Origin: Isoetes taiwanensis
Taxonomy: Eukaryota; Streptophyta; Lycopodiopsida; Isoetales; Isoetaceae
Direction of reading: 5' to 3'
Assembly (NCBI GenBank): GCA_021234155.1
Contig: JAJEKV010000011.1
Coordinates: forward strand, 6,991,132-7,055,131
Length of the DNA: 64,000 nucleotides
Below the pieces are notes generated by a model. That model saw nothing but the letters and a program-made list of their open reading frames with translations. It did not search any database and was not told where the DNA came from. This document shows, one piece after another, positions 12,991 to 62,822 of the stretch (positions are counted from its first letter, which is position 1; the number at the start of each line of letters is the position of its first letter). The position numbers and the translations under genes are program-made.

Positions 12991-13871
12991 CTGCATCATC
13001 GCACAATCTTCAGCTAGCATTGTTCAGCGGATGCATCAGGATCGTTTGTCAGGTGACTGATCTTCTGGCTGATCGTTCTTTTTTGATCTTCTTGTCAGGT
13101 AACTAATCTAAACATGTCATCCAGTTCTTTTTTTATCCAAGCCGACAATAGATTTGCAGTCAAGTCTTGAGAGAGTTTTCTTTAGATACTGTTGGTTTAG
13201 TTCCCAATTCATTCCCATTTTTCCTCGCTGAGACAAAAACGGGTTCTTATATCTAAGCTGTTCATGTTTTGATATAAACTGAGATGTTTTGCACCGCACT
13301 TGCAAATTTCATCAAATTAGGTACATAGAGCCACATCATATATCATATACGTCTTCACATTGCCAAATCTAATTTGAATATTGCCTCTTCCACAGATATG
13401 CATCCTCTTCATCTCTTGCATAAGCTTATGTGTCCATAATACGAATCTTCTTATCAATTCCATAAGCTACAGTGCCAATGAATGAAAGGCAATGGCCATA
13501 TATAGTAACTAAAACAAGAAACAACATCTCATGGTAGAGTTGGATATCTACTGCAGAGTTGTGAAGTCTGGCTATAAGCAAAAAGCACCCTGGAAAAATA
13601 CTCCAATGCCAGATTTTGGTTTAAAATCAGAGAAGAATATGTCAAACAACTAGAAAAGCAATTAATATGTGTGCCTTCATCTGAAAATTTCATCTTCTAA
13701 GTTGCTGGGATCTACAAGATAATCATATAATACGAAGAAGGAGGTGATTGAGCTGAGCCGAACATCATTTGACTATAACTATGGCAGTTATTTTATCTTA
13801 TTTATCTTATTATTTTATCTTATTTATTCATTGATGCAGTGATGGCTAGTGAAAGTGATGAGGGCGACGAC

Positions 13872-14574
13872 CAGGGATAGGTTCAATACTGTATACGTTT
13901 TATACGCAATACGTATTTTTCGTTTGATACGGCACAAATTTGACGTTTAATACGTCAAAAATACGGCTAAAAAAATTTCCGGCGTCGAAAACTTTCGCGT
14001 AAGCGAAAACAACTGTTTCGCTTACGCGAAGTCTGGTTCGCGTAAGCGAAACAGTATTTTTCGCTTACGCGAACCAGAAATAGTTTCGCGTAAGCGAAAT
14101 GAACTATTTCGCTTACGCGAAAACATCTTCGCGTAAGCGAAACAGTCAACTTCGCGTAAGCGAACGCGCCTCGAAATATATATAGAAAACTTCGCGTAAG
14201 CGAAAACTTCTGCTTCGCTTACGCGAACCGCCCTTCGCGTAAGCGAAACGCAAAGAATGTTTACGCGAACAAAAAAAAGTTTCGCGTAAGCGAACCTTTA
14301 TACTTCGCTTACGCGAAAAGAGTTTCGCGTAAGCGAACATTGAGGCTTCGCTTACGCGAAAGCCGGCGAGGGGATTCGCGTAAGCGAAAACTTAGACTTC
14401 GCTTACGCGAAAGAAAGTTCGCGTAAGCGAAACAGAAGGTTTCGCTTACGCGAAACTTTTTTTTTCCGGCCGGCGAGTATTAAATACAAAAAATACGTAT
14501 TTTTCCCAAAAATACGTATTTTTGCACTTTATACGTCTGAAAAAATAGTTTCATACGTACAGAACCTATCCCTG
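13872..14574. mobile_element. hAT-type non-autonomous element, copy 1 (703 bp)
   Basis: The element starts CAGGGATAGGTTC and ends in its inverse GAACCTATCCCTG, with identical 8-bp flanks GCGACGAC at 13864-13871 and 14575-14582. An 8-bp target duplication and CAGGG-type ends are hallmarks of hAT elements. Removing the element and one duplicate leaves the host ORF open across the junction, which confirms the boundaries. Sub-terminal parts are rich in ATACG/CGTAT words (for example ATACGTATTTTT on both sides). The interior contains 20 alternating 14-bp motifs and no transposase. It must be mobilised in trans if at all. Confidence 0.93.
13994..14454. repeat. Array of 20 alternating 14-bp inverted motifs
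   Basis: TTCGCGTAAGCGAA (F) and its complement TTCGCTTACGCGAA (R) occur 20 times in 461 bp. Starts are 13994F, 14017R, 14037F, 14060R, 14085F, 14108R, 14128F, 14151F, 14191F, 14214R, 14234F, 14256R (degenerate), 14281F, 14304R, 14324F, 14347R, 14375F, 14398R, 14418F and 14441R. Orientation alternates almost strictly, so neighbours can fold into a chain of hairpins. Spacers of 6-26 bp differ from one another. Clustered sub-terminal motifs in hAT elements are typically transposase-binding sites; that role here is inferred. Confidence 0.95.
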
Positions 14575-17560
14575 GCGACGACAACAACAATGAAGATGAA
14601 TCAGGTGGGAGGAAAAAGTATAAATGTGGTTGTTTCAAATGTAGGGGTAAATCAGTTTGTAGATCCACGTTTTACAGTCATAAAAAGCAATTTATGTTAG
14701 ACAATTTAAACTTAAATGTTATAGAGGATGTTGGGCTAGGGATATTAGCAGACCATTTAGTAGAACATGCCCATGAAAGTGCTTCAGTAGATGTTCAAAC
14801 AGATTTTGATGAGGCAGTTGAGGTAGAATCAGATGAATATGCTCTTGAGAGTTTTGGAGAATAGGAAGACTTAGAACAGGAAGACTTAGAACAGGGGCTG
14901 TTTTCAAATGTTATGCTTGAGCAAGGGCTTGTACAGAAGATTCTCATGCTAAGAGAAATATTTCAATCTAGCCATTTATCTACCAAGTACCAGGAACAAG
15001 TTTTGAAGTTGTTGTTTCAAGATATTGGGAAGCCCGTTCAACGAGTTGAAGACGCTTCCATTGGTCAACTTCTGCGGGCTTTGCCTCAAGGTTGGGATGG
15101 ATTGTTAGGCGGCCAAATAGTTCCAACATCACTCTATCGACTCCAAAGTCCGCAAACTTCGACCCAGCCAGATGATGATGGTATATTTCGTTGGCCTTTG
15201 TGTAGGAAGGTCGAGAGAGTGAACATGAACTTCAAGTCTTTGAGCCAAGTGATGAAGACAAGTATTTCGGTAGAGGCTTACTTCATTGTGGATGCATTCG
15301 TGAAGACGGGAGCAAGATGCTTAAGCGTAATTGTTCTGCTCATGCACAACGGTGCAGCTTATGTCATCAACAACGAAAATACATGATTCCTTTGGATGGC
15401 GTCGCTCCAAAGATTGGCTGCAACAAGTTTTTCTCGATTACCTACATTTGCGCATGAGGGCCTTCGAGCTTGGAGGTGCAAAAATCGTGGGATGATGAAG
15501 TGGGAATAATCAAGGAATTTCGGCATGGTGCAAAATTCAAAGAAATAAGGGCTTTTCTAGATGAAGAGCAAGTATTTGAGCTACCAATTTGTTTGAAAGC
15601 AGATGAATTAACATGTGTACAAAGCTTTTCAGGAGTCTCAAAGGGCACGAGTTAACAACTTTAGGTGATGGCTATGATTTTTGTTGCTCCAAATGTCATC
15701 ATCAAATCAAAGCACCAAAGAGAATTTTGTCACGGGGACCCCAGAAATATTCTTTTCTGAGACTCACATGGATGGGTATCTGATTGGAGAAGGTAATGAT
15801 AAGTTTAAAGGTTCTGGTCATGGAGGCCATGGTCTTAAATCTGGTATGTTTTGTGATTCTATTTTACATCAAGATTATCTTTATCTCCGGTTGTTTGATT
15901 TAGGTGTTTGTTTTTATATTTATTAATTGCGAGGCCATGAAACCACTTTGCAACCTTATCCTTTCATATTTGCTCCAGAAAGTTTGTTGGGGAACGTAAA
16001 TGCATTTCAACTTGCACCTGTTCTTATGGACATTTTTTTTCTCGACGGTTAAGAAGCTATTTCATGGATGGATTGCGGCACTATGGAGAGGGAAGAGTAG
16101 CTGGCCTCGGCGGGGAGTTCACCATGCGGGTTCTTTGGTTCCACCACAATGTTGCACATTGTCAACTTGGTGGTTTTAAAGTAGCAGGCAAAGCCGGATG
16201 CGAAGATGCTTAGTTTTGCGCCGAAAGCGAGATGGCTCCCCGTTCTAGCGAGTATGTTTACAATAATAATCGACGCTGAAGCCGCTTTCCACCAGTCAAA
16301 CGAATCTGCAGAAGACACCTTCAAGCTCTTGAAAGAGGCAGGCAAGATTTCAATCTAAAATCATTTATTGTTGAAACTATTAGTGCTCCAATCATTTATT
16401 GTTGAAACTATTATTGTTGAAACTATTATTGCAGAAAGTGCTCCAACCTAAACGAGAAAGAACAAAAGCTTTTGGACTCGGACTGTCAAAAGCGACATCC
16501 GTCCCGAAGTTGTTTCGATTATATGGTTTCGATCCGGCAACGATTTTTTGTGTTTGATGTTCTTCACACATTAGCACTCAATGTCATAAAAAATACGTTG
16601 ATGATTTCCTTAACAGATTCAAACTTGCAAGAAACTCAACGACTTCTAGATGAGATTTATATTGCTCTACCAAAAACGCTTCGACAACAAGGCGTATATA
16701 TTCTCTCCTTATCTTTGTCATTAATTTAACCATCCTTTTTACAATTTTATTTTTTACGGATGGCCTAAACTTAATAGTCATCATTGAATTGAAGACTGAA
16801 TTCTTCAAGGGCCAGATTACACCAGCTTTGTTCGATGGGTTCTTCCGTCTGCTTTGCACCAATGGCAGGCCCAGGTTGAGAATGAGATCCTCGACTTAGG
16901 CTTCTTATGCATGCAGATTGTTGAGATCTTCTACCAACACTCTCGACAAGGTTGGACAGAGGACTTGATGGAGATAACAAAGACACTATTGCAATCCTGG
17001 CGAATTCGATCTGAAGAATTCTATGGAAAAAATTCAGCAATTTTGGAACATGTTGCAGGTAATTTTTTCTTCATCCTGAAAAGTGTTGCATAAATGTCTT
17101 CATATTTAGGTTCTTAGCTTTTAACTACATAGTTCTCATTTCTCTTTTAGGATGTGGCGAACTGTTGGACGATGTCAAAACACATGGTCCTCACTGGCTC
17201 TATTGGTGTTATAGATATGAAGGTTTTGTGAAACAGTACAAGGCCATATTGACCAACCATAGATCAATTGAGGTTTCTCTTGCATATTTTCACTACAAGA
17301 GAATGAACACAATTGTGCAAGTACAACGGCAGATTGACGAAGATAATAAGACACCGGAAGAACGAGGGGCAATTGCGATACATGAATGTCTAAAGCTTCC
17401 TAGCCATCACGTGCGTCAAACATGTGATCTACAACAATGTTGTTTGGTGGTATGTACTCTACAACATTTACATTTCTCATTCTCAAGAAATAATACAGTA
17501 AATAAAGATAATTATTCAAGATTTACAACCATCCAGATTATTCATAGGATGAACAGTTAA

Positions 17561-52654: not shown

Positions 52655-53289
52655 GCTACCCTGGGGGTTGTACCAAGGCTGCGAGGGGGCGCTCTGGACT
52701 ATGCATTAGACATGGCGGGGGGAAAAGATGCAAGCAGGAAGGATGCAGTAAATGTGCCGAGGGCTATACTGGCCTTTGTATATCTCATGGTGGAGGAGGC
52801 CGTTGTCAAGCTGGGGGTTGCAGCAAAGGAGCACAAATTTTTGCAAGGAATCATGGAGGAGGCAAATGTTGCATGATCCCGGGCTGCACAAAAGAGGCTG
52901 AGGGGAGTACTCCACTTTGCAAAACACATGGTGGAGGTAAAAGATGCATGCATGAAGGTGGGGCCTTTGTCCAAAGGGTGTCCATGGTGGTACATCATTC
53001 TGCGTTGCACATGGAGGTCGAAAATGCTGTGCATCACAGGGTGGCACCAAGAGTGCAAGAGGAAGAACATATTATTGTGTTAGACATGGGGGCAAGGATA
53101 GGTTCTGTACGTACAAAATTCAAATTCCTGACGTATGTAACGTATTAAAAGGTTGCCAGCCGGAAAAAAAAAAAAAAAATATTTCTCGTACGCGACACAG
53201 TTTTCAAATTTCAAATTCGTAAAAAAAAAGAAAAAAAAAACAATTTTTTTTTATTTATTTTATTTTATTTTATTTTTTTAATTATTGAG

Positions 53290-53834
53290 CGGAAACAAAG
53301 ATGATATTCTTTGCCTAGCAAGAACAAAGAGGATATTCAATTTGACATAAACTCGCAGTTTGAGTTGTCCATTAACATAGATGCTCTATGCTAACTTTGT
53401 GTGCTAAAGGTAATTGGAAGATTGACATAAGATTAGCACAAACTTCACACCACATGCAAAAGCTACATGCCAAAATTATGAGGTACGAAATTCTATTCAA
53501 TGGTATTTACATATTCTCTTTGGTCCTTTAATGGTGGCATGGCTGATAGACGTATATTATCCATAGAAAATATTGGGTAATGGAATTGACAAAAAGATTA
53601 ATATGCATCTCTTTCAATAGGAGCCACTTTTTACATAATCTATGTTGTTGGATGTTCATGTAGTCGGATCTAATATATGGTTCATATTCTAATTCCAAGG
53701 TATGTGATATTTGACCTTTTGACATCATCCCTTTGATTAAATCCACACCACATGGCTCTACTCTGTTAGATATATTTGAAGACATGGATGTCCATCATAT
53801 TGTAAGTAACAACATCTCTTTAAACTATTTTGTT
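53290..53834. other. No gene seen; spacer inside the large insertion
   Basis: AT-rich sequence after a TTTTATTTTA simple repeat at 53250-53280. No recognisable coding or element sequence was found. Confidence 0.4.
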
Positions 53835-53842
53835 ATTAATGG

Positions 53843-54227
53843 CAGGGATAGGTTCAATACTGTATACGTTTTATACGTAATACATATTTTTCGTTTGATA
53901 CGGCACAAATTTGACGTTTAATACGTCAAAAATACGTCCAAAAAAATTTCCGGCGTCGAAAAATTTCGGCGTAAAGCGAACCTTCATTTTCGCCACGCGA
54001 AACTTAAATTTTTTTTAAAGTTTTCAAGAAAGTTTAAACAGGAAGGTTTTCTTTTACGCCGAAATTTTTTTTTTTTTGCGTAAAAGCCCAGTTGAAGGTT
54101 TAAACTTTACGCGAATTTTTTTTTTCGACCCGGTGAGTATATAAAATACGTATTTTCCCCAAAAATATGTATTTTTGGACTTTATACGTCTGAAAAAATA
54201 ATTTCATACGTACAGAACCTATCCCTG
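53843..54227. mobile_element. hAT-type non-autonomous element, copy 2 (385 bp), nested
   Basis: The ends are CAGGGATAGGTTC...GAACCTATCCCTG, and the exact 8-bp duplication ATTAATGG lies at 53835-53842 and 54228-54235. The first about 120 bp and last about 100 bp are nearly identical to copy 1 (ACTGTATACGTTTTATACG; TTTATACGTCTGAAAAAATA). The interior motif array is reduced to a few degenerate units (for example TTCGGCGTAAAGCGAA and TTTACGCGAA). It sits inside the 9.36-kb copy 3. Confidence 0.93.
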
Positions 54228-54235
54228 ATTAATGG

Positions 54236-57200
54236 CTCTTGTAGAATCCTAACCATGTCATTATAGCATTTGCACACTTGGGCAATAATCCTTCCTATAT
54301 AAGGCAGATACATTTTTCTGCCCCGACCTAATTTCTTCCTTACTAATTCTATTTTCATGACACGTTATGGGTTTCGCATTTATTTCAGATTATGCATTTA
54401 TTGCAGAGTATCTATCAGGTATGGGTCGGAGGTTGACCCGCGATGCTGACGGTTAGGCGTCTAACCTAGAGTGTCGAGGAGCAACACAGCCTCAATCCGG
54501 CCGGCAAAGGATGAGCATTTGGATCGAACCATTCCATCAGAAATCTGGGCTGTGCACAAAAGGATTACCGCATTGATGCGATCAATCTCTCCTGAGCATA
54601 ATATGCTGCCCTCTGTTCTTCAGTCTGCTCTTCAATTTCATGCATGTTTCCTCTTCATTCCGCGAAATTGCATCCTTTTGATCGATTTGTTCTTCAGAAT
54701 CCGGCCTACCATTTCTCGCTGCATAAGTATTCCCTGCTTCCCAAGCAGGCCTTGAATTCGGAACCAATCTGTTTAACCGAGCAGCAGAATTCTCTGTAGC
54801 TTGAATTTGAGCTTGAGTAACTCAAAAACGAGTTGCAGAATAACTTCTAGCTAGAATGGGCCTAGAAATATTACCAATTTACGAATTCGACCACCGAGAT
54901 TCTGAGAACGAGAACCCAATGCATCAATTTGATGATCGATGGCATGAATCTGAGCATGAATCTGGGAACCCAAATCACTGTGCTGATGAAAAAGGCGAGA
55001 GTCATGAAAGCGCTCGACGACAATATCGGTACAACAGATGAAAAGGTGATGGGCAAGTTCGAATTTTAGAGTGGAGCCATGTTTTTGAGATCCGCCATAG
55101 GCACCGGAACAGAGAGCGTCTAGCCTGGGGCCTCATGGCAGTAGCCTCGAGTAAGAGGCAATGACCTTGGATGATATTCTAAAAACGCCAAGCCGTCATG
55201 CAAGCAATGGCCCAGTTCGCGGATGGCATCGATATGGCCCAGAGCTGCAGCTCTGGCGCAGAGGGCCACTCCGGCCTTCAAATGCTTAAATCTTTGCCCC
55301 TTTCCGCTGGAAGCAGAAGAACTCTGTTGAAGTCTGTGATAGCACTCTGCAAGGAGTTAAGAACTCTGATGGATCACATTAGATCCGTTGAACATCCGCT
55401 GAACTCTGATGGGGTTAAGAACTCTGATGGATTTTTTGCGCTCTGATGGGGTTAAGAACTCTGTCTGCATAAGCTTGGCTATGGCGCCAGAATACAATCA
55501 AACTATAGCAAACATGGAACCACTGTTGAATGCTGGTATCTTAGCAAAAACAAAGCCAGCTGTTGAATGCCGCTTATGGGTTCCGCCAAACAACTACGAC
55601 TTGGGCATACCGTAAACAAAATCCGACCCATTCATTTAGACTCAATATTGGAATACAGTAGCAGTGGCTTTGGGAAAAACCAGATAACAGAGAACCAAAG
55701 CCAAAGAAAAGAAAATTTCCTTGTGGCCATTCCTTTACAGAGTTATATATAAAAGCATCTGCAAATCCAGACTTTTGAGGAAGCAAAATAAAGTGCTCAG
55801 CTTCACCATGGTGCCGCTTTAGCTCCCCTCTAACCGCACAGAATCGATTGAAAGAGGGGCAAGGTTCTACCAAAATCGATTCCCCGAGAATATTTTGCAG
55901 ATCACGGATCAACCTGAAGAAGACGCCAAGACAAACGCCCAAATCCGAGCACGCATCACCTCAAAAAAGTTAAATGAGTAAAAAAAAAATGATATAGAAA
56001 TTCAAAGACTGGCACGTCCTCGCTAAATGTTAAAAAATAACATATCGTGCTACCTCTTTAATGGCATTTAATTTCGATGGCCTTTTTTATGGACGGGGAT
56101 ATCACAACCCCAAATATTTATTACGATCCAATTATCTCTGTTTAAATATAATAATGTGCCACCTTTACAGCTCATCATGCAGCATTAAATGTGATGCACG
56201 TGGCTAAGAATAATTAATGATGCTTAATTGCTGCCAGTAAAATAATGCCATCTCGTTACATTGTATTAAATGCTTTGAATATAAGTGGCTAAACCTGAAC
56301 AGTAGATCTCACAATCTAGACCATTATAAAAAAAACTCCTTTGAAGACCAATTTATACTTTCCAGGTTTATATGTGGCCTTTTTACCTAGGAGCCTTGGC
56401 TTACCCTTTGATGGAGCCTTGGCTTACCCTTTGATGTGATAACTAATATGCCTAAAAAAATGTAGACATCAAGAAGTATCTTAACACTAGAGTTGTTACT
56501 GGAACTATTCTGGGTTCATCCACCAGAATTGGTCCAGCATACCCTCTGCCACTTAAACCCAGGTATCTAACAAGAGAAATTTCCATTTCACAAGATACCA
56601 CCACTTTTGGAATCTTCACTCGATTCTTTATGGCCATGGAGAATTTCATGACCAATAGATTTACTGATATGTTGTGGTGATTGCCCAAACCTCATTGAAT
56701 TCAGCAGTTTTTACGCCAGGCCAGAACTGCATTCTTCAAACTTTCTAGCATAAAGGGGTCCAAACATTTCTAAAATTGAAAGTAATTGACGTTTTATGAT
56801 AAAACATGTTGATTTGCATGTTTTCATGTTTCGTTGCTATTAGATGGCATTATATGAAGTCGTCAAACCATTTTTAGCTCAAAAAAGCTGTTTGAGGTTG
56901 TGAATTGTTTCTCCTTTACTATAACAAGTTTTGACGTAAGACTTGCGGCCATAAGTTGTCAACTCTAAGAGCTATAGTCCAATAATTTTTTGAAGTGTCT
57001 ATAAGTCATGTTGATCTCAATTTTCACTAAAGAAGATTCGATACAGAATCCAGGACAAAAATAGAACTAACGTGGTTTAACTAAACTCATATATAAGCTT
57101 TCTAAGGGCAATAAATGATGCACTCCATTCATTCCACTTATACATTTATAATAAAGAATTTTATGAACTTAAATATGGTGAATAACCATGTATTCTTTAC

Positions 57201-57980
57201 ATTTAGAAGTGGTTGCCACTACACAAAATTAGAGTTTAGCTAAGGTAATAATACAAAAAACTCATCTTTTATGGTAGGCAATATTTTTTATGAATGTCAC
57301 CCTTCCTTGGCAACATAGATCTTGAATTTCATGTTAAAGTAACATATTATGTACAAGATTTGATTTAAAATAGACATGGACCATTTCTAGTTTGTACTTA
57401 GGCTTGCCATATTTTAAAGCAAGATAGCATTCTTTTTCAACTCATAATTGATGAAACATCTAATAGAAGTTTAAAATATAGTTTGTATCGTCTTAGTGCA
57501 AAACACACGATAAAATCTTTTTATTTTTTACTATCATAAACTTAGTACACGTGTTTGCTGCCTAAGAGTTCCTACTTTAGGTATAATAATAGTAACTTTA
57601 GCTTGTTTTTCATGATAGACTATAATTTTTATGGGTTCAAGCTTCATTGGCAACATAGATCTCCAATTTGATGTTAAAAATAACATACTACTATATGTAA
57701 GATTTGAATATAAATGGGCATGGACCATTATGGTCCACAATTAACGAATTGGATATAGAATTAAATCTCTCTAATTATGATTACCAATTTTATTTATTGT
57801 GTTCATTTGTCACTTATACAATGATATGGTGATTTTCTACCTTCTCTAACATAATTTTTGGAAGGATAAGTGGAGATTCATATAGGTTCAGTTTGCTTGT
57901 GCTTCAACTTTACCATTAAATAATGCAATTCTAGCAACCAACTAATTAAGATGAGGATGTTCTGGCTTCTTGAATGATCA
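54236..57980. other. No confident gene inside the large insertion; one minus-strand ORF noted
   Basis: A minus-strand ORF at 55942-55574 (122 codons) contains RDLQNILGESILVEPCPSFN and RGELKRHHGEAEHFILLPQK, which read like protein but are unrecognised and lack neighbours. Positions 55350-55465 carry repeats of TTAAGAACTCTGATGG. A TATA-like CTATATAAGG lies at 54295. The stretch from 55980 to 57980 is AT-rich. Confidence 0.35.
57311..57735. repeat. Diverged direct repeat of about 85 bp
   Basis: GGCAACATAGATCTTGAATT... at about 57311-57390 and GGCAACATAGATCTCCAATT... at about 57649-57733 share ATGTTAAA-TAACATA, AAGATTTGA and ATGGACCATT in order. They may be remnants of one repeat family or of two LTRs; nothing coding lies between. 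Confidence 0.7.
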
Positions 57981-57997
57981 TAAGCCATGTGGACCAG

Positions 57998-58105
57998 CAA
58001 AGGAAGGAAGGAAGGAAGGAGGGAGGGAGGGAGGGAGGGAGGGAGGGAGGGAGTTTTAACGTCCACGGAACCCAATCGGGTTATGGGAAACAGACATGGC
58101 AGTCT
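57998..58105 (-). mobile_element. LINE 3'-end fragment with a GGAAGG/GGGAGG tract
   Basis: The tract GGAAGG(n) then GGGAGG(n) at about 58000-58052 is followed by TTTTAACGTCCACGGAACCC and AATCGGGTTATGGGA. The GC-rich LINE at 45310-45368 has GGAAGG(n), then TTTTTATCGTCCATGGAGAC and CAATCGGTCTATGGGA in the same relation. This is therefore a very short copy of the same LINE family's 3' end on the minus strand. The expanded purine tract could form G-quadruplex or triplex structures. Confidence 0.75.
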
Positions 58106-59535
58106 ATCTTTATTTTTCATAGTTCTAGCTTTTTATATTTGTTTTTCATTCTTTTGCATTGCTTCCACAACTTGAGAAGATAAAAAATACAAGTTTTGAG
58201 TTCACCATTCAATACATAGGTTTATAAAATCCATGGAACGCGTACTCTAACAGATAACTTGGAATGAACACTAGAAAGTTTATGTTAAACCTCAAGATCA
58301 GGAGCATTGATTATTTTTAATGAATAGAGTAGCTCATGAGGTGCTTATATCCCGCAATTGAAACTGAAATTGATTAACATGAGGGAGTTCTTAATTTTAA
58401 AAAGAAGGTGGACCGGTAATGGTCTCAGGTAATACGAACCTTTCTTGATTTCTTGAAAACAAACGCTATGTTTTTTTTACGTCTTTGTTTTTGGGGTGAT
58501 TCCATATCGTGGTAACCTTTCATAATGTGATTTTTTTGAGGATGACTTTGAATCATTTTACTCCTATATAGACATAAGTTATCATTCACTTGTAATTGAA
58601 AAAATAAAAGAAAATCAAAACCTCATCATCAAGGCTAATGGACATTTTTCATAGATAAAGCAAGTTGTCTAATACTTATATTCAAAATTTTGGGTCAAAA
58701 TTCATTTTCCTACAAAAGTTAGAGATTTGATTTGGGAACAGCTTTTTGGAAACCAGTATTGGTTCACAGAAGACAAGCAGCAGTTTTGACCCTGTCATGT
58801 TCAAACAACCCTATCTCCCTTCTCAGACCTCGGATTGAGGTGCAGTTTTTTGTGCCTTACTCTCTAACTCGTGTAGAAAAATACAAAAATAATGAAAAAA
58901 ATCATAAAAATTGTCTTGCCGAGACAGTTTTACTTTATCTAAACATGTAGTGAAACAGACTGTGTAACTCTCATGAATGGGGATCAATAGATTTTTAGGT
59001 ATTTTTCCCATGCAACATGACTGCCATATATTAACATATAAGAAGGGTTTGACTGATTATTGAACCCCTGATTTTATGTGAATTTTAACGCGAACAGTGC
59101 AAATGCACCTTTTCTGGTACATCATGTGACGACTCTAGTGTTAATGGACGTAATTTGATGAGACTCCCCATTACTAAGCATGGTGTCCACTTCTACATTT
59201 TCCATCCTTTCTTAATAGTGAACAACAAAAAATAAAAATAAAAACAATGTACATATGCCTTTAATAGTATCCATGCAATTCAAGATGATAGTTATCCCCC
59301 CTTTTTTTTAACAATGTCTCCAAAGTATTGTCAAAATTTTCTCTTATTTGCTTTTTCTTATAGGTAAGCAAATCCCTTAAATAATTAAAGTGCACTTGGC
59401 GACTTTAACCCAAAACCTAGTGGTTATATCATGATTAAGGAAATCGATAAACTTCGCAATGGGAATCTCATAGTTGTAATAGTCAAGGTCTTACTATTGG
59501 GAGGGTATTAGAACACTCGGCAAGGAAATGTACGT
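58106..59535. other. No gene seen
   Basis: AT-rich non-coding sequence inside the 9.36-kb insertion. Short ORFs such as 58732-58950 are unsupported. Confidence 0.4.
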
Positions 59536-59655
59536 TTGAATCTTGCATGTTCTAAACATACAGACGAGACGATGAAGAGAAATGTTCGCGGCGGCTTGAA
59601 TCTTGCATGTTCTAAACATACAGACGAGACGATGAAGAGAAATGTTCGCGGCGCA
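59536..59655. repeat. Exact 60-bp tandem duplication
   Basis: The unit TTGAATCTTGCATGTTCTAA, continuing ACATACAGACGAGACGATGA and AGAGAAATGTTCGCGGCG, is present twice with period 60. Its last 20 bases (GAAGAGAAATGTTCGCGGCG) recur at 59996-60015 inside another repeat. Confidence 0.95.
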
Positions 59656-59981
59656 ATAAAGTTCCCACTAGTCCAAATTTGTGAAATATGATTTTGCATC
59701 ACGTTGCTAGACATGGAAAATAAATATTGGATGATGCTTTAAAACCCTAAACGTTGGGATTGTGCCCAAATGCCCATGGTGGTTATGAAAATTGAATATG
59801 TATTCTTTAGACGCTAGGCACTAGCATAGGTCTCAATCTTGCTTATTCCTAGACTGACAGGCATCCACTATTACCAAATGGATCAGTTGAGAGAGATCTT
59901 TGCCTCCACTATTATTAAATAGATCAGTAGAGAGATTTTTGCCTCGAGAGTATTCCCTTCTTCTGACTCACTCTGCCAAAT

Positions 59982-60044
59982 ACAGGGGAGCCGGGGAAGA
60001 GAAATGTTCGCGGCGGCCTTGGCCGCCGCGATAAATTTCTTGTA
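59982..60044 (+). repeat. Hairpin-bearing dispersed repeat, left copy
   Basis: ACAGGGGAGCCGGGGAAGAG followed by AAATGTTCGCGGCGGCC and TTGGCCGCCGCGATAAATTT. The inner GCGGCGGCC/GGCCGCCGC arms form a 9-bp hairpin with a two-base loop. An inverted copy lies at 63731-63799. The element type is unknown. Confidence 0.8.
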
Positions 60045-60370
60045 TTAAAAATTGTACTACGTTGGACTATGCCTCAAAGTGGCATTTTAAGATCCACTTC
60101 TCTAAATTTTGGTTTGGACTTATATAAAGGCTTTTCCAAAGGCCTTTGTAAAGAAAAGGCATGCCTTTTATCTATACATGCATATTGCCAAGTGGCTTCA
60201 AACCAAGTTATTTCTTTCATGCATTTGTTTGCTTCTTGCAAAAAGTTGCAAAAAAGCACATGCATCGTGACCAAAAGTGGTTCCATTTCATCCCCTAGCA
60301 TAAGAAAAAAAAGCCCTCTTTATTTTTGCGGTTACTTTGGAAACATGTTGTGAAATAAAACCCCTTACAT

Positions 60371-60622
60371 CTAGGGTTTTGCCTTGATATCTAACAGCTC
60401 TACAGGGCGCTTGCATTTCCTAAGCGGCGATGGTGATCTGCAAGAGCTCAATCTGCCTGTAACTTTGTTCTTCATGCTGGATGGCATACCCGTGGATGCT
60501 CCCCTTTTGGAAAACTTTGCAGACACTATTTCATAAAGTTGGGATCTACCTTTGCGTTTCAACACATTCATGTTGTTCCAGTTGAAGCTTTTGGCATTTG
60601 TGGAGCTGGCTTTCGGGAGCAT
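60371..60622 (-). CDS. Hypothetical minus-strand ORF, 83 aa, possibly a terminal exon
   Basis: The ORF begins MLPKASSTNAKSFNWNNMNV and ends RKCKRPVELLDIKAKP with a stop. It is basic and Ser-rich, with some resemblance in style to a nuclear protein tail (SCRSPSPLRKCKRPVE), but I do not recognise it. It lies within the 9.36-kb insertion, next to the hairpin repeat. It could be a captured gene fragment or chance. Confidence 0.25.
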   Translation of the reverse strand: MLPKASSTNAKSFNWNNMNVLKRKGRSQLYEIVSAKFSKRGASTGMPSSMKNKVTGRLSSCRSPSPLRKCKRPVELLDIKAKP

Positions 60623-60639
60623 TGTAGCATTGGATACTG

Positions 60640-62210
60640 GGTTCTTTTAAATCATAATGATGGATACAGCATATGATGCAGTTCAATTCAAATTCTAACA
60701 CTACCGATGGTTATGGATAGAAGACTTCAATCCAGGTCTGTACAATTATGGTTTTGAACATGAAAATTCAATGAGCTTGACATGTGAGTAGCTAAAAAAC
60801 AAATCTAGAAAATTCTATGGTGCATTTTTTAATTCTGCTACAAAGATATGAGCTCCAAACTTGTTCTAGATCATTACCAGGTTGAAGCATGTGCTATCAA
60901 TGCCATTATTGCTCCCAGCATATGGATTACAAGTTAGATCTTGTGTTTTTCAGTTTTAGCTTAAATTTGTGAAGTTGTATGTTCCATTATGAAATAAGAC
61001 TCTTTTGAGAACTTTGAGATTAGTTGGACTGAACTTGGTGGAGGGCTAAACTTGAGATACTTCTGAGATCACTGAACTTGTCCGACCTCTGCCATTTATT
61101 TTGGACAGTCTCTCAATTGGTTTATATCAGACCAAAGTTAGAGGTTCTTGTAACATGATTGCATTTTAATGTTTTAGAATATACATGAGGCTTTATTGCT
61201 ATGATCGATTATTGCAGATCTAATCTTGCAGATTCAAGCATTGACATAAAGGTTAACAATTAGCACTTGTTGTAGTATTGACATATGCGATGCTTTTACT
61301 CACATTCTAGTGTCGTACATGCAAAATTGATGGACTATCATAGGAGTTAATGGTCCTGATTGAGTTTCTTTGTGTACAGTTTTGAAACATGTATACATTT
61401 CTGAACAGAACACGGTGAAGGTTATAAGCCGTGGTGTCCCATAGCTTACATGCTAGTCCTTTCATTGTTACCCTACTCAAGCTAACATTTGTCTGGTTGA
61501 CTGCAGGTAACCGGGACTCCACCTCCTTGTTTTTGTTCATGTAGGATGGTGTTACAACTTCTAGTTGTTATCATAATTTGCAAATCCAGATAAGTTATCT
61601 GAACTCTATAATATCATGTGTCTTGCAGTAGAGCAAGAATACATAAATCTTATACTTGGATATTCTATCTTGATGCATGTGCTGTCTTAATGCAGGATAG
61701 CATTTGCTCAACTCCACTCATGGCTGTACATTTAATAAGACAAAGATTAACTGCTGCAAAGCGTTGATTATGGGCTGATTATGGATATGGATTAAGTGCT
61801 GCCAGAGCAATTTTTCAACATGATACTCTACTTTGACTTAGAACAAGTATTCAAAAGTAATGTTTGAACGATTATTATGTATTTTAGCTGTTTTAACTAC
61901 TTATTTTCTGTAGCAGAGTCAACATCTAGACATGCTTGTCAACTTTGACAAAATATATGAATTCTACATGATGTTGTAAATGTTCTATCTTTTTATTAGG
62001 ATATGACATACATATTTTGAATACAATGTTTAAGTATATTCTAGTCTGATATTCTATTCTAACAAGGCATTACGCAGAAATTGTTATCCAAGTCTTGGCC
62101 TAAAGAGAGTTGCACCTATTATCTTTAGGGCTGCTTATTGGACCTTTAAGTCCTCAATCTGCAGATTAGGATGGTAAGGTCAAAAGTCTTGATGGTTCCT
62201 TTTAGGTTCT
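60640..62210. other. No gene seen
   Basis: AT-rich DNA in the right part of the 9.36-kb insertion, up to the poly-T at 62224 where sequence of the hAT family's right end begins. No coding family was recognised. Confidence 0.4.
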
Positions 62211-62822
62211 AGAAAGACTTAAGTTTTTTTTTTTTCTACGCTGTTTATACGATTTCGCGTACGCAAAATTTGAAATAAAAAAAAAAAAAAAAAAAAAAAG
62301 GGTGAAATTCAAATTTCGCGTACGCGAAAATCTTCTGACGCCGGAATTTTTTTTGCCGTATTTTTTACGTTTTATACGGCAAATATGTGCCATATCATAC
62401 AATTCATACATATTCCGTATAAAACGTACAACGTATTGAACCTATCCCTGCATGGGGGAGGTAAGCGTTGTAAAAGGGAAAATTGTGGAAAAGGTGCTGC
62501 TGGTAGTACAGGCTTTTGCAAAGTTCATGGAGGAGGAAAGCGACAGGAGGAATCCCTATGGCCCAAAAAGCTGTAAGGAAGATATTGGCGAGGTTGCCAG
62601 GACTCCATGTGAGAGGTTTGCGCGAGGTCAATTGGGTCTTTGTGTTGCTCACAGTAGGCTTGTGCTGGATGGTAGAGTACATGATGTTCCTAATGTTGGA
62701 AATTCTCTTGGACCTAGTATTTCACTAAGTTTGTCTCGTGGTCTTGCATCAAGGCACGTGGCAAAACCACTTTCAATTCGAGAGAGCACATCTACTATAT
62801 CTAAAACTTCTTCAAGTGCTTT

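Follow-up and report, generated by a model that had tools for sequence, protein, structure and literature searches.

Judged by its sequence, the 703-bp hAT element at positions 13872-14574 of the window (the stretch of 64,000 nucleotides of Isoetes taiwanensis DNA analyzed here) is a non-autonomous, MITE-like derivative of a large family in this genome. Alignment shows that ~261-275 bp on its left and ~417 bp on its right come from longer members that encode transposase, the sequence between them having been lost. The family is of a known hAT kind, with unusually uniform palindromic subterminal arrays whose dyads are putative transposase sites. We give this reading as a whole, including the view that scrambled copies are most likely consensus errors, a probability of about three in four.

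The element, its copies and the origin of its array

The 13-bp terminal inverted repeat CAGGGATAGGTTC at 13872-13884 (plus strand) is the exact inverse of the right end at 14562-14574 (minus strand), and the 8-bp target-site duplication GCGACGAC stands on both sides, at 13864-13871 and 14575-14582, which confirms the boundaries given in a preliminary description of this DNA. The repeat starts with CAG; short terminal inverted repeats beginning with CAG are a feature of the hAT superfamily. The left terminal region (13872-13993, plus strand) is free of dyads, and TACG and ATACGT words are abundant in it. The motif TTCGCGTAAGCGAA then occurs at 19 exact sites within 13994-14454, with a decayed 20th site at about 14257-14269. 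Each 14-bp motif is itself palindromic, with 5-bp arms around a GTAA center (TTCGC-GTAA-GCGAA), which the preliminary description did not recognize. Every site matches the opposite strand at 2 mismatches, and because the motif is palindromic its orientation is visible only in the center, GTAA or TTAC. Start-to-start steps are mostly 23 and 20 bp and forward and reverse dyads alternate, so that the 20 alternating motifs first described largely stand, but the eighth site breaks the alternation (forward where reverse is due). A scan of the window at 3 mismatches found 45 motif matches against 2.70 expected, a number that 0 of 100 shuffles reached.

We searched a genome of 1,658,258,908 bases in 1110 contigs. 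The 18-bp left end has 976 copies (0 for a reversed-pattern control) and the exact motif 1,916 occurrences (2 for its control). A DNA search with the element scored 40 among 2,380 candidates; 28 of these, the window copy counted, are full length at 93-100% identity, seven are full length at 81-86% identity, four match only from 291-292 to the right end, and one matches only positions 1-490. Both ends are present in 36 of the 39 loci examined, and the loci without two ends (L061, L062, and L063) are right ends of larger elements. Identical 8-bp duplications flank 32 of the 36 two-ended copies, and transposase-coding relatives share the ends, which together bear out the hAT identity proposed earlier. 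The duplication preference of hAT elements has the consensus nTnnnnAn, and the family follows it: among 39 duplications, T2 occurs in 25, A7 in 22, and both in 15, with the alternative center TA in 1. The array also belongs to the element, as the preliminary description had supposed. At least 15 exact motifs are present in 28 of the 36 two-ended copies. We also hand-picked 20 motif clusters among the first 100 places listed: of their 64 exact motifs, 60 are no more than 450 bp inward of a family end, and L035, whose end is decayed, accounts for the other 4.

The autonomous-type relative with the same ends that the preliminary description had suggested seeking was found in L021, a transposase-coding element of 6,938 bp with the ends of the 703-bp element and an ATTTGGAA duplication. 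Of the 12 exact dyads in L021, most belong to an array close to the right end. The right end of L021 aligns with positions 287-703 of the 703-bp element (375 identities) and the left end with positions 1-275 (228 identities); for L076, it is positions 1-261 that align with the left end (236 identities). The four partial matches from the genome search, which begin at 291-292, are right ends. Since the element aligns to the left and right ends of coding elements, its 20-site interior amounts to two subterminal arrays joined. The left array (13994-14164, plus strand) has 8 exact dyads and aligns to the left ends of L021, L076, and L074, and the right array (14191-14454, plus strand) has 11 exact dyads and the decayed site and aligns to the right end of L021. 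Local alignments stop at element position 261-275 on the left and start at 287 on the right, which places the fusion zone of left-end and right-end sequence at 14132-14158. Hence, the interior is not the single array of the preliminary description but consists of 8 left-derived and 12 right-derived sites. The earlier statement that the interior goes beyond ordinary subterminal sites is right insofar as the array is unusually long, uniform, and palindromic; its extent, however, comes from two subterminal arrays brought together by an internal deletion.

The element thus has the marks of a MITE or other non-autonomous element, being 703 bp long and noncoding, with ends that match L021 and L076. 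Relative to Ac, Ds is an internally deleted non-autonomous hAT. The Isoetes element resembles MITE and Ds-like elements in that both ends are kept, no open reading frame of 65 aa or more is present (the longest overlapping one has 64 aa), and many near-identical copies occupy different sites; it differs in that the interior between the terminal regions is nearly all an array of putative transposase sites. A literature search on Isoetes, hAT, and MITE found no report. The element is inserted in a frame that continues across the empty site (window 13840-14800) with an acidic stretch followed by a Cys-rich KCGCFKCRGKSVC stretch, and a 70-residue peptide of this frame had no match in Pfam.

Possible function of the dyads

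What could such an array do? By analogy with other hAT systems, we infer that a multivalent transposase-binding platform is the best explanation. We hypothesize that the TTCGC arms serve as docking points for transposase subunits, suggesting two subunits per dyad, and that the dyads in this way load many transposase subunits near each end. The loaded transposase would assemble the end complex, leading to excision by the hAT cut-and-paste pathway, and the short copy, with both arrays complete, would be well suited to mobilization in trans. Binding, the number of subunits, and the need for the array are extrapolated here from hAT precedent, namely, Hermes. In Hermes, one end has 17 and the other 14 subterminal AAGT/AAGC sites, and a pair of subterminal repeats makes up a quasi-palindrome to which two BED domains bind (PMC10368747).

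The Isoetes family resembles Hermes, Ac, Tag1, and Tol2 in its short inverted ends, 8-bp duplications, and hAT dimerization domain and in having many short repeats in the first few hundred bp from either end. The putative sites here are 14 bp long and nearly identical, whereas those of Hermes are 4-bp and irregular. Also unlike Hermes, the Isoetes array has 20- to 25-bp steps, mostly alternates, and starts about 120 bp inside the end. Of 24 distinct loci other than the window element, 16 have an array that starts 111-125 bp inward of an end; for the remaining 8, the distance from the end to the nearest motif is 103-208 bp. We also compared the left array with that of L074, an older transposase-bearing copy whose dyad changes look like ordinary point changes. 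The motifs are identical at 106 of 112 positions, the spacers at 40 of 61, and the first 118 bp of the terminal region at 104 of 118; the steps are 23, 20, 23, 25, 23, 20, and 23 bp in the window element and 23, 21, 23, 25, 23, 20, and 23 bp in L074. In this one pair of arrays, the motifs are kept better than the spacers, which suggests that the dyads are under constraint. We count both the mostly set distance of the array from the ends and the motif identity with L074 in favor of binding sites; the 8 loci with arrays that start elsewhere, the single pair behind the comparison, and the low zf-BED scores of the transposase zinc finger (below) count against them.

It is unlikely that the array instead works as a DNA or RNA structure, with hairpins or cruciforms that aid replication or excision or yield small RNAs without a sequence-specific protein. 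As single-stranded DNA, 13994-14454 folds at -187 kcal/mol, against -89.1 kcal/mol for shuffles, of which 0 of 100 reach the value of the array, but any row of alternating palindromes would fold so. The usual distance within opposed pairs, 23 bp in 8 of 8 cases in the window element and in 27 of 41 cases in 16 other loci, would also suit a structure. In the same 16 loci, 16 of 26 diverging pairs have a step of 20 or 25 bp. Spacing is partly inherited and is therefore weak evidence alone. Against a structural role, the L074 comparison indicates that the dyad sequence itself is kept, beyond complementarity, the arrays stand at a set distance from the element ends, and an Rfam search of the window gave no family match. 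Against the binding-site reading, in turn, stands the outcome for helical phasing of the dyads, an idea that was dropped: at 10.5 bp, R is 0.40 for the left 8 and 0.28 for the right 12 dyads, values reached by 25% and 34% of random spacings, respectively.

About as unlikely is the idea that the arrays are functionless debris of tandem duplication, uniform through recent amplification; 87-nt direct-repeat units, 66-82% alike, inside the 703-bp element indicate that the array did grow by duplication, but the spacers have diverged from those of L074 and the motifs have not, and related elements have another center at nearly all sites, at both ends in L083. If the dyads are transposase sites, as we favor, the family provides an unusually clear end platform whose sites can be counted (20 within 461 bp, almost identical), together with natural copies that have fewer sites and two site types with separate transposases. 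The number of bound transposases needed per hAT end would then become directly testable.

Transposase, site types, and accessory frames

L021 encodes a Dimer_Tnp_hAT match of 21.9 bits (curated cut-off, 21.4), and a 766-aa frame in L073 matches DUF659 (4.2e-24, 85.4 bits) and Dimer_Tnp_hAT (2.7e-9, 37.1 bits). The L073 transposase also matches Hermes (3.5e-5); the ends of the L073 element were not found. We dropped a candidate left end of L073 with 2 mismatches, since the sequence behind it is not family sequence, and L074 as a 3.58-kb element, since its second end lies inside the transposase frame and the flanking 8-mers differ. At least 150 places in the genome match the transposase C terminus (150 scored among 1,327 candidates), and dN/dS relative to L073 is 0.11-0.70 over 24 rows. 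In the N-terminal zinc finger of the transposase, C-x2-C and H are invariant. Two of 6 members match zf-BED with E-values of 0.032-0.18, and a fragment does so at 0.1, all below the Pfam cut-off; the model of the finger has a pLDDT of 64 (low confidence), and a fold search with it gave no match at an E-value of ≤0.001.

The perfect palindrome TTCGCGTACGCGAA has 961 occurrences in the genome (control, 3). In L083, an element of 5,335 bp whose duplications match at 7 of 8 bases, the dyads at both ends are mostly of the GTAC type; it contains a transposase piece of 85% identity. Over the loci examined, some of them overlapping, the dyad centers are GTAA in 639 cases, GTAC in 31, and others in 34. 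Loci are nearly uniform for one center or the other, and the few mixed ones have 1-2 GTAC sites (L018, L031, and L063) or one GTAA site among GTAC-like sites (L094). The transposases divide similarly: their DNA is 92.0-97.2% identical among GTAA rows, 93.7-96.4% among GTAC rows, and 83.6-89.6% between the groups, and the scrambled GTAA row L076 is 88.8-91.8% identical to GTAA rows and 81.1-86.4% to the other group. With L095 as the root, the tree groups the GTAA rows as a clade (support, 75) but not the GTAC rows, of which L090 joins the GTAA side at a support of 100. Site and gene are linked in one element, and these data therefore describe a change of the whole set of sites and do not imply co-evolution.

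Large copies contain protein kinase and RING frames between the transposase and the right end, on the opposite strand. A kinase frame lies at L075:7474-8112 (minus strand; also in L021, L076, and L078), and a 621-aa kinase frame lies at L100:175-2037 (plus strand; Pkinase, 4e-8). A RING-finger frame lies at L076:4746-5234 (minus strand; also in L073, L074, L075, and L078), and one of 448 aa lies at L100:2380-3723 (plus strand; zf-C3HC4 above the cut-off and zf-RING_2 below it). The RING frame is placed between the transposase and the kinase. Counts of neighbors rest on 150 scored matches for each protein, among 1,327 candidates for the transposase and 1,248 and 785 for the others. Among the matches listed, a RING frame lies within 8 kb downstream of the transposase and opposite to it in at least 52 cases (52 of 150; controls, 0, 0, and 0), a kinase within 12 kb downstream and opposite in 41 of 150 (controls, 0, 1, and 0), and a kinase upstream of a RING frame, both on one strand, in 64 of 150 (controls, 0, 0, and 0); in 52 of those 64 listed pairs, the distance between the two is 2.0-2.4 kb.

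Relative to L100, the dN/dS of the kinase is 0.23 in L076, 0.32 in L078, 0.66-0.76 in L101, L075, L021, and the overlapping L042, and 0.15 in L083, over 163 codons and with dS saturated. For the RING frame, it is 0.16-0.28 in L078, L073, and L074 and 0.40-0.76 in L101, L076, and L075. We suspect that the high values are inflated by assembly errors. The kinase frame is inside the complete element L021, and the copies with the RING frame are not delimited at both ends. From this layout and the low dN/dS in some comparisons, the family apparently includes a three-gene hAT with a transposase, a kinase, and a RING protein, and a literature search on hAT elements with RING, protein kinase, or accessory genes found none. 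Should both frames be confirmed as element genes, this would be a hAT with its own regulatory genes. A broader proposal, which we advance tentatively and at slightly less than even odds, is a three-gene lycophyte hAT lineage with its own kinase and coiled-coil RING protein, in which the ends have long uniform arrays of palindromic dyads re-specified as sets (GTAA or GTAC) and each subfamily would act only on its own end complexes and array-only derivatives.

The window contains other members of the family. A large one of 9,358 bp (53093-62450, plus strand), recognized by its ends and the duplication CATGGGGG at 53085-53092 and 62451-62458, interrupts a WRKY19-type zinc-finger frame that continues across the empty site. 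A search of the window, this member included, for transposase, kinase, and RING reported no match. Nested in it is a second short member of 385 bp (53843-54227, plus strand) with the duplication ATTAATGG, whose dyads are decayed or scrambled. Close to its right end, the large member has GTAC-type dyads at 62254-62267 and 62315-62328.

Scrambled copies and the quality of the assembly

In seven of the 36 full-length copies (L054-L060), most differences from the window copy fall on the dyads. These copies have 0-5 exact motifs and 64-101 differences per 279 motif positions, and the terminal differences per 242 positions are 0 in L054, 7 in L055, and 4 in L057. The eight copies with fewer than 15 exact motifs (L054-L060 and L064) have, per position, 0.26 differences in motifs, 0.14 in spacers, and 0.055 in terminal sequence; the corresponding values in 27 near-intact copies are 0.017, 0.045, and 0.010. 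We consider the scrambling of the dyads to be very probably a nanopore consensus artifact. This reading follows from the published assembly, which was made from nanopore R9.4.1 data with Guppy 3.1 flip-flop, racon, and pilon (PMC8566536), and from known repeat miscalling: nanopore callers can convert one repeat into another, as at telomeres (PMC9414165). The likeness is that one repeat is systematically rendered as others; there it was seen in reads, whereas here it is deduced from an assembly and concerns another motif, which makes it an analogy only (PMC9414165).

Insertions assembled twice bear on the same point. L079 and L080, with identical left flanks, are one insertion assembled in two contigs. 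Of 990 columns, 38 differ between them, and 34 of these differences form five clusters, four on the four dyads of the insertion and one just outside. These clusters contain CG in 5 of 5 cases against 2.41 expected (P = 0.03), a weak enrichment. In the dyad-free duplicate L081/L082, 6 of 6 clusters contain CG against 1.34 expected, which 0 of 500 placements reach. The pair L029/L030 has CG in 4 of 6 clusters against 3.22 expected, which is no enrichment, and L046/L047 has no difference clusters in 2,615 columns. L077 and L078 were dropped as duplicates, since they are not homologous, and each was used singly.

It is very unlikely that the dyads were truly rewritten in living plants, by cutting of extruded hairpins and faulty repair or by a targeted mutator, with spacers and ends spared. 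The concentration of changes on the motifs of L054-L060, the nearly untouched ends of L054, L055, and L057, the position of four of the five L079/L080 clusters, and the recurrence of one rewritten dyad form (144 occurrences in the genome; control, 2) would suit such a process, and the two pairs with no CG enrichment or no clusters speak against an artifact; however, similar clustered differences occur in L081/L082, which has no dyads, failure of short-read polishing in repeats would yield just such a division between near-intact and scrambled copies, and the sequencing chemistry and the behavior of nanopore callers cited above point the same way. The likely consensus errors in L079/L080, L081/L082, and L029/L030 call for caution in repeat work on this assembly. 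In nanopore assemblies of this kind, dense CpG palindromes in repeats may look hypervariable, probably without being so.

The rewritten forms themselves differ between the site types. By eye, L077, the left end of a GTAC member, has recurrent rewritten forms in which GTCTG replaces GTAC, and the rewritten forms of the GTAA type are GTTTAAA, as would be expected of an error that varies with the true motif.
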